From assembly GCA_947627715.1 (NCBI GenBank), contig CANQXK010000024.1, positions 1-38,155 of the forward strand: a stretch of 38,155 nucleotides of DNA, in the 5' to 3' direction. The notes under the pieces are model-generated. The model was not told the DNA's origin. It was given only the letters and a program-made list of their open reading frames with translations, and did no database searches. A program made the translations under genes and the position numbers. This DNA comes from an uncultured Oscillospiraceae bacterium (lineage in GTDB: Bacteria > Bacillota > Clostridia > Oscillospirales > Oscillospiraceae). Below are positions 16,548-18,652 of the stretch, one piece after another (position 1 is the stretch's first letter; each line of letters opens with the position of its first letter).

Positions 16548-17162
16548 ATGGATATGCTGATCAAATGCCTGCCTGTGGGACATATCGAGGCCAACTGCTA
16601 CGTGGTCACCGACGAGAACACCTTGGAGTGCGCCGTCATCGACCCCGGCGACGAGGTGAACACCATCATGGATTACCTGGAGGAGACGAAGCTCAAGCCC
16701 AGGGCCATCCTGCTGACCCACGGCCACTACGACCACACCGGGGCCGCCCTGGCGCTGCGGGAGGAGACGGGCGCGCCCATCTTCATAAACCGGGCGGACG
16801 TCACGGACGACCCGGAGGAGTCCTACCGCTACTGCGCCCCGGAGGGCACCCGCTTCTACGCCGACGGGGACACCGTCACCGTGGGGGCGCTGCGCTTCCG
16901 GGTGATGGAGACCCCCGGCCACTCGCCGGGGTCGGTGACCCTCCTGTGTGAGGACGCCCTGTTCACCGGGGACACCCTCTTTGAGGGGAGCTGCGGCAGG
17001 ACCGACCTGCCCGGCGGGGATTTCGACGCCTTGATGGCCTCCCTGCGGCGGCTGGGGGACATCCCCGGCAACTACGAGGTCTACCCCGGCCACATGGACC
17101 CCACCACCCTGGACGTGGAAAAGGCCGTGAACCGCTATATGAGGTACGCCAGGGGCCTATGA
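16548..17162 (+). CDS. metallo-beta-lactamase-fold hydrolase (glyoxalase II-like)
   Basis: 204 aa cytoplasmic MBL-fold hydrolase. The zinc motif THGHYDHTGA (HxHxDH), GHSPGS and the late YPGHMDPTT supply the usual ligands; FTGDTLFEGSCGRTD carries the bridging Asp. The size and these motifs match the single-domain YcbL/glyoxalase II-like group, where the natural substrate is often unknown. Two in-frame ATGs are possible: 16548 with GGAG about 9 nt upstream, and 16554 with AGGGGG 6 nt upstream; the difference is two residues. It lies 21 nt after dtd and overlaps hemZ by four bases (ATGA). Confidence 0.9.
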   Translation: MDMLIKCLPVGHIEANCYVVTDENTLECAVIDPGDEVNTIMDYLEETKLKPRAILLTHGHYDHTGAALALREETGAPIFINRADVTDDPEESYRYCAPEGTRFYADGDTVTVGALRFRVMETPGHSPGSVTLLCEDALFTGDTLFEGSCGRTDLPGGDFDALMASLRRLGDIPGNYEVYPGHMDPTTLDVEKAVNRYMRYARGL

Positions 17163-18652
17163 AGCTGTATCTTACGGGACATAACTACCGCTACGCCGTG
17201 GAGCAGATCATGCTGGCCCTCTTCCCCTCCGCCCGCCCGGAGTACCCGGACGGGGACCCCGCGCCGGAGGACGACTGCGCCCGCGTGGAGCTTTCGGAGG
17301 ACCCGGCCCTCTGCCGGGTGGCGCTCCAGGTGAACGGCCGGAAAACAGAAGCAACACAAAGCGGAAATACTTCGCTGTTTCACGTGAAACAAAGCAAAGA
17401 CCGGGAGGCGCAGCGGATCATCAAGCTGGCCTTTTACCACGCGGCCATGGAGCTTACGGAGGAGAGGCCCGTCTGGGGGGCGCTGACGGGGATCCGACCC
17501 GGCACCATCATGACGCGGCTTTTGGAGCGGGGCCTGTCCGGGGAGGAGGCGATGGAAGCCTTCTCCAGGGACTACTTCGTCTCCCCGGAGCGGGCGGCGC
17601 TGTGCCTGGACACCGCCAGGGCGTCCCTCCGAACGGAGCGGGCACTTAAGGCCCGGGACGTGGCCCTCTATGTGGGGATCCCCTTCTGTCCCACCAGGTG
17701 CGCCTACTGCTCCTTCGTCAGCCAGAGCGTGGAGAAGTCCATGGGGATGATCCCGGCGTTTTTGAAGGCGCTGCGCCGGGAGATCGCCGCCACCGCGGCG
17801 GCGGCCGGGGCGCTGGGACTGCGGCCCGTGGCCGTATACATCGGCGGGGGCACGCCCACCACCCTCTCAGCGCCGGAGCTGTCGGCGCTTCTGGGGTGGC
17901 TCCGGGAGGAATTTGACCTCTCGGCGGTGCGGGAATTTTGCGTGGAGGCGGGCCGGCCCGACACTGTGACGGAGGAGAAGCTCCAGGCCCTCCGGGGGGT
18001 CACCCGCGTCAGCGTCAACCCCCAGTCCATGAGCGATGAGGTCCTGGCCGCCATCGGGCGGCGGCACACGGCGGAGGACATACGCCGGGCTTACGCCCTG
18101 ACGCGCAGGACGCTTGCCTGCGACGTGAACATGGACCTCATCGCCGGGCTGCCCGCCGACACGCCGGAGCGGTTCGCCGCGACCCTGGACGAGGTGATCG
18201 GCATGGGGCCGGAGAACGTGACGGTACACACCCTGGCCCTTAAGAAGGGGTCCCGGATCACCGAGGAGGACACCGCAAGGCCGGGGAAGGACGAGGTGGC
18301 CCGGATGCTGGACGGCGCCGGGGAGAAGCTGCGCGCGGCCGGCTACAGTCCCTTCTACCTCTACCGGCAGAAGTTCATGTCCGGCGGGTTTGAGAACGTG
18401 GGCTGGACAAAGCCGGGACACGAGAGCCTCTACAACATCCTCATCATGGAGGAGCTTTGCACCGTCCTTGCCATGGGCGGGGGCGGGTCCACAAAGCTTG
18501 TGGACAGAAGGAGCGGCCGCATCGAGAGGGTATTCGACCCGAAATACCCCAAAGAATATGTGGAGAGCCTTGATAAGATCGTGGCGGACAAGGAGAAGAT
18601 CGCCGCGTTTTACGCGGAGACACAAGGGGGAGGCAAGGAACATGGGATATGA
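17159..18652 (+). CDS. hemZ: oxygen-independent coproporphyrinogen III oxidase-like radical SAM protein HemZ
   Basis: 497 aa. Radical SAM enzyme of the HemN/HemZ group, expected to act on coproporphyrinogen III in anaerobic haem synthesis, although some relatives are haem chaperones. The cluster motif CPTRCAYC has Cys at 177, 181 and 184, preceded by VGIPF; YIGGGTPT and a HemN-type C-terminal region follow. The N-terminal ~165 residues are the HemZ-specific extension (MKLYLTGHNYRYAVEQ). The start overlaps the previous stop (ATGA). Residues about 60-80 (QSGNTSLFHVKQSK) come from an unusually AT-rich patch carrying a perfect parS palindrome. The 3' end overlaps the next gene by 11 nt. Confidence 0.9.
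   Translation: MKLYLTGHNYRYAVEQIMLALFPSARPEYPDGDPAPEDDCARVELSEDPALCRVALQVNGRKTEATQSGNTSLFHVKQSKDREAQRIIKLAFYHAAMELTEERPVWGALTGIRPGTIMTRLLERGLSGEEAMEAFSRDYFVSPERAALCLDTARASLRTERALKARDVALYVGIPFCPTRCAYCSFVSQSVEKSMGMIPAFLKALRREIAATAAAAGALGLRPVAVYIGGGTPTTLSAPELSALLGWLREEFDLSAVREFCVEAGRPDTVTEEKLQALRGVTRVSVNPQSMSDEVLAAIGRRHTAEDIRRAYALTRRTLACDVNMDLIAGLPADTPERFAATLDEVIGMGPENVTVHTLALKKGSRITEEDTARPGKDEVARMLDGAGEKLRAAGYSPFYLYRQKFMSGGFENVGWTKPGHESLYNILIMEELCTVLAMGGGGSTKLVDRRSGRIERVFDPKYPKEYVESLDKIVADKEKIAAFYAETQGGGKEHGI
17376..17391. promoter_or_regulatory. parS centromere site (ParB binding)
   Basis: TGTTTCACGTGAAACA, a perfect 16-bp palindrome identical to the consensus chromosomal parS bound by ParB/Spo0J. 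It lies within the hemZ coding sequence, encoding LFHVKQ, in a locally AT-rich stretch. parS sites cluster near oriC in most bacteria, so this segment may lie in the origin-proximal part of the chromosome (inference). Confidence 0.92.

Follow-up and report, generated by a model that had tools for sequence, protein, structure and literature searches.

The haem-synthesis gene hemZ of an uncultured gut bacterium of the Oscillospiraceae carries within its reading frame a perfect copy of the centromere-like site parS. Sequence comparisons make it likely that this copy serves the chromosomal ParABS system as an additional, authentic site for ParB nucleation, and that it came about in place, in a coding stretch that tolerates change. 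The gene lies at 17159..18652 (+ strand) of the 38,155-nucleotide stretch of DNA that was analysed (hereafter, the window). It is an intact open reading frame of 497 amino acids of the radical SAM coproporphyrinogen dehydrogenase family, scoring 474.5 bits against the NCBIfam HemZ equivalog TIGR03994, for which the cut-off is 321.4. The site (TGTTTCACGTGAAACA, at 17376..17391, palindromic and assigned to no strand) is read in frame and occupies codons 74-77 together with two bases on either side, those that end codon 73 and those that begin codon 78 (L-F-H-V-K-Q). Matched against the 16-bp parS consensus, it is exact, as expected of a chromosomal parS, and nowhere else does the window match this consensus with three or fewer mismatches; shuffled versions of the window gave a mean of 0.06 such sites, with at least one in 6 of 100 shuffles. 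The preliminary description had reported a perfect 16-bp ParB/Spo0J site inside a coding sequence, and this was confirmed.

The genome from which the window comes (G000; 2,638,794 bases in 100 contigs) contains four exact copies of parS, one on contig C8, two on C14 and the one in hemZ, against an expectation of about 0.0001 in 2.64 Mb, calculated with the G+C content of the window (63.4%) and bases taken as independent; a fifth parS-like place, on C38, has two mismatches. The two C14 copies are 46 bp apart and directly upstream of parA. Three ParB-family matches were obtained in this genome, of which one is full-length (184 bits) and adjoins parA, so that parA, parB and two exact cognate sites stand together on C14; the absence of parB, which the preliminary description had named as grounds for abandoning its claim, does not apply. 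Given the four exact copies against 0.0001 expected, two of them just upstream of parA and parB, the hemZ copy is in all probability a true ParB site.

The site is embedded in an A+T-rich stretch of rare codons (codons 61-81; 17339..17401, + strand), which surrounds parS and lies mostly upstream of it. The G+C content of codons 60-81 is 45%, compared with 66% for the whole gene, in agreement with the AT-rich patch noted earlier in the N-terminal region of HemZ. By A+T content alone this patch ranks fifth among the coding stretches of the window; by codon rarity, the 12 codons from codon 61 form the second rarest non-overlapping stretch among its 25 genes (z -7.3), and the single rarer one is the start of an ORF with an uncertain start codon. 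The run of rare A-rich codons at 17339-17373, which reaches about 12 codons upstream from parS, is not shared by the sister genome G016. In the genus alignment, residues 61-80 are the most variable part of the protein and have the highest column entropy (2.8-2.9 bits). The predicted fold (mean pLDDT 91; block confidence 87-95 in this stretch) shows a strand at 61-68, which is the last of the N-terminal sheet, a short helix at 71-74, a turn and a long helix at 77-97. The predicted turn between strand and long helix stands apart from the radical-SAM core, which starts near residue 167 and to which the PDB matches for HemZ are confined. The site lies in this hypervariable N-terminal stretch, at the predicted sheet-helix join and ahead of the core. 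An inserted or added segment was also considered, as the preliminary description had proposed a local addition at residues 60-80; this was rejected, since the stretch has the same length in the 29 aligned genus proteins, with or without parS, apart from a one-residue gap in G026, and carriers show no length gain over non-carriers.

The same codons of hemZ hold parS in other species. A HemZ match was found in 33 of 34 genomes of the genus, and in six of these 33 a parS occupies the same position, spelled TTTC..GAAA in G000, G013 and G023 and TTCC..GGAA in G014, G021 and G033 (sites were counted with at most one mismatch to the TTTC form or when exact to the TTCC core). The other 27 have no hemZ parS as far as seen, one mixed site in G003 being unplaced; 29 of the HemZ proteins were aligned, and for G002, G003, G009 and the split G022 the judgement is by coordinates alone. 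Across the 300-genome family, hemZ and parS places were compared among the matches listed, and no parS-like site in or near hemZ was seen at 93 other loci with HemZ matches (80 + 13), which repeat some genus genomes and some of which lack the stretch. In another genus, at matching places in two species (G051 and G275; L248, L258), a parS lies about 1.1 kb upstream of hemZ.

The preliminary description had suggested checking whether the palindrome is conserved at the DNA level beyond codon needs, and the comparison speaks in favour of this: the hemZ genes of G000, G013 and G023 differ at 14-21% of bases and the palindrome is exact in all three, while G014, G021 and G033 carry it in the other spelling. 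Free loss of the palindrome by synonymous change, which would have spoken against a functional site, was not seen; none of the 29 aligned HemZ keeps F-H-V with the palindrome broken by a silent change. Codon identity adds less: in the TTTC trio 5 of 5 parS codons are identical, against 206 of 339 elsewhere, a weak test with a chance of about 0.08, and in the TTCC trio the comparison (6 of 6 against 356 of 424) is uninformative. In a HemZ tree built without the variable stretch, the TTCC carriers form one clade and the TTTC carriers need three changes, for instance one gain and two losses (in G016, and in G031 with G017). The site is thus dispensable on an evolutionary time scale, because G016, G031 and G017, within the same subclade, do without it. 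The hemZ of G016 has TTT before and AAA CAA AGT AAA after the position, with CAGACA replacing CACGTG, and F-x-x-K-Q is likewise encoded by G019, G031, G017, G027 and G032, none of which has parS at this place. As relatives without the site often encode F-x-x-K-Q, parS needs mainly H-V and a choice of codons, and it would most likely have arisen by substitutions where the codons already came near to what it requires, rather than by an insertion.

That the palindrome is a by-product of what the HemZ protein requires at F-H-V-K-Q, or of chance, and has no role for ParB, would fit its being in frame and the frequency of F and K-Q at this place in relatives. We regard this as highly improbable: H-V is absent from 23 of the 29 aligned genus HemZ, TTT, AAA and CAA are minority codons here (0.26, 0.20 and 0.10), the expected genome-wide number of copies is negligible, and both spellings agree with the local parA-side parS.

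This agreement extends to all six carriers, in which the hemZ spelling is that of the parA-side site; the six represent only two lineages, so that the dialect match amounts to n = 2. The parA-side parS is GTTCCACGTGGAAC in G014, G021, G033, G020, G004 and G005, and at position 204 of ParB these six TTCC genomes all have Lys (L168, L169, L179, L284, L288 and L289), while Arg is found in 20 of 20 others examined. The number follows Caulobacter and was placed by reading an alignment to 6t1f; the comparison covers 26 of the 34 genus genomes, the Arg set consisting of 18 ParBs from the main comparison plus G031 and G017, and no ParB was found in G001. G004 and G005 were added afterwards as a test of the pairing, and both fit. 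The Lys204 ParBs are forced into two separate groups by the ParB tree (24 rows), which makes them two separate lineages. Residue 204 contacts parS and is conserved between ParB and Noc, according to passages of a study of the two proteins (PMC7383237). The Arg204 genomes include G018 and G029, whose sites are further variants, and G006, which has a single mixed site; parS therefore also varies without a change at 204. We do not claim Lys204 as the sole determinant of TTCC reading: PDB chain 7bnk, which we take to be the Myxococcus ParB, has Arg at the aligned position, and Myxococcus uses TTCC. The latter spelling is given in part of a report on M. xanthus, with the consensus TGTTCCACGTGGAACG and 22 sites clustered in 3 kb (PMC3899335). 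Our TTCC genomes share this spelling at parA; unlike the 3-kb cluster, their sites in G014, G021 and G033 are dispersed in repeats. In Pseudomonas aeruginosa, most parS sites have the TTCC spelling in at least one half. As a separate observation, ParB position 201 (numbered through the 6t1f alignment) is Ser in 24 aligned genus ParBs, for example at L164:3960-4841, and is said in passages of PMC7383237 to be a conserved Gly in all extant ParB orthologues.

A parS within a gene is in itself a known kind of site. In P. aeruginosa, nine of ten parS are predicted within coding sequences, as stated in an excerpt of PMC4368675, and the hemZ site resembles these in being a 16-bp target of ParB within a gene that has no part in segregation. 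It differs in that parS is carried by the same gene, at the same codons, in lineages that are separate and spell it differently; what is unusual is this repeated use of one codon position, together with the match to the spelling of each species' own partition system. Variation in parS number and position, and what drives clustering, are posed as open questions in a portion of a review (PMC7333895), and a hemZ parS present at the same codons in some species, absent in sisters and respelled along with ParB allows a clean comparison to be made. A direct and testable lead on ParB specificity comes, in addition, from the way in which residue 204 of ParB and base four of either parS half-site change together.

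Exact TTCC sites are numerous in G014 (17), G021 (15) and G033 (10), where parS is centred in dispersed, near-palindromic 54-bp repeats (L058, L063, L204, L205 and others). From 34 TTCC sites outside hemZ and parA, 32 were aligned, giving the consensus ATACTTTACTATACTAAAAT-parS-ATTTTAGTATAGTAAAGTAT. Many repeat positions are common to the genomes and others have no partner among the compared loci. These repeats raise the question of whether the hemZ site is the remnant of a spreading, parS-bearing palindrome that overwrote a stretch of the gene. In the TTCC clade, the similarity between the hemZ sites and the repeat extends over 38 bases (89%; E 3.6e-8 to 5.5e-8, parS included), compared with E 6.5e-4 for a bare 20-base parS match in G020, and in G014 and G033 the left arm agrees at 14 of 21 positions, a value reached by 35 of 781,774 background stretches, a background that itself holds some repeat copies. 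This left flank favours transfer of repeat sequence in that clade. The C8 site of the window's genome also has one repeat-like arm (16 of 21), a value reached by one of 100,224 background stretches, the site itself included. Among 88 arms at 44 other genus sites, mostly parA-side, four reach 14 of 21: those of the parA-side parS of G024 (17), G028 and G030 (14), and that of the C8 site (16). The C8 site (L001:1502-1515) stands beside a gene that by eye resembles spoIID.

For the hemZ site of the window, an origin as a repeat remnant is nevertheless unlikely. Its arms agree with the repeat at 8 and 4 of 21 positions, so that it does not qualify as a repeat copy, and the length of hemZ is unchanged. 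A comparison of 24 repeat copies from G014 and G021 with 391 kb of G033, roughly one ninth of the genome, revealed no clean empty site, and insertion is thus not shown for any repeat copy. The best reading of these alignments is that the parS of the window was probably fitted in place, its arms being unlike the repeat, and that the TTCC hemZ site, with its similar left arm, may carry repeat sequence. A wider scheme, which we put forward only tentatively, is that parS behaves in this genus as a spreading and respelled unit: the switch from Arg204 to Lys and from TTTC to TTCC would have occurred in two lineages, one of which proliferated palindromic repeats, and the HemZ stretch would have been taken as a home for the centromere more than once, the protein being bent to the ParB dialect.

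Two further ideas about the repeats were tried and rejected. The arms pair in 85.9% of cells, against 32-46% in slid registers, as a palindromic consensus must; of 500 shuffles, however, 95 had as many two-sided changes as the alignment (12) and 84 as high a covariation score, so that there is no evidence for selection on pairing into a hairpin. A link to two other short repeats, found beside 19 of 32 copies, was dismissed, both being very common in the background. A 20-kb stretch of G033 (L271) contains four families of 170-300-bp interspersed repeats, with related pieces elsewhere in the genome. Among the papers listed in a literature search, judged by title and opening of the abstract and with most subscription papers outside its scope, none dealt with parS carried by repeats.

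The location of hemZ bears on what the site may do. In 13 of 13 near-complete family genomes among the matches listed (those with fewer than 10 contigs, with both DnaA and HemZ placed), the interval between dnaA and hemZ is 14-398 kb, a median of 9% and a maximum of 36% of the half-chromosome, percentages that rest on rounded genome sizes. Five assemblies among the 13 consist of 2-7 contigs, dnaA and hemZ sharing a contig in each; the distances of G085, G117 and G115 were taken across the ends of the records, for G115 (362 kb) on the assumption of a contig closing to 2.6 Mb. An origin-proximal locus, as proposed in the preliminary description, is thus supported through relatives, the window's own genome being a draft of 100 contigs. 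Exact parS of either spelling number 2-4 per genome in 10 of the 13, and in eight of these ten they are no more than about 5 kb apart, with one site lying separately in each of G085 and G218; parB adjoins the parS cluster in G085, G100 and G165, the three of these genomes in which it was located. With parS clustered in eight of ten genomes, a site as remote as that in hemZ is unusual for the family. In Caulobacter, passages of PMC5815017 describe an extra parS cluster as best tolerated within about 500 kb around ori, the main factor being how far it lies from the native parS.

Taking these positions and the partner genes into consideration, we infer that the hemZ parS is probably an added loading point for ParB, and with it SMC, in the origin region. 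ParB would bind the site and from there load CTP-dependent clamps, which would slide along the adjoining DNA and so enlarge the origin domain on which ParA and SMC act; selection may have kept the palindrome exact. Extra parS away from the parAB cluster are known from another Bacillota genome, that of Bacillus subtilis, with 8 sites scattered over about 0.75 Mb, according to part of PMC8357415; unlike B. subtilis, the window's genome has four exact sites.

A role other than segregation would be nucleoid occlusion of the Noc kind, or control of hemZ and its neighbours by ParB spreading. B. subtilis has Noc. In nine genus genomes searched, by contrast, no second ParB-family match exceeds 96 bits, compared with 147-170 bits in eight genomes of other genera, and with no strong second match in these nine ParB could take on a Noc-like duty; some relatives, moreover, carry 10-47 sites. 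We still judge such a role decidedly unlikely, as exact sites number only four in the window's genome, and a Noc-type paralogue (Q173/R201 signature; L244, L264) is present in two relatives, one with 47 sites and one with 7, so that many sites are not tied to loss of Noc there. The 47 exact sites, of the GTTTCACGTGAAAC type, are those of the 2.8-Mb genome G253 (L228-L247), where 13 of them lie within about 10 kb around ParB and the Noc-type paralogue.
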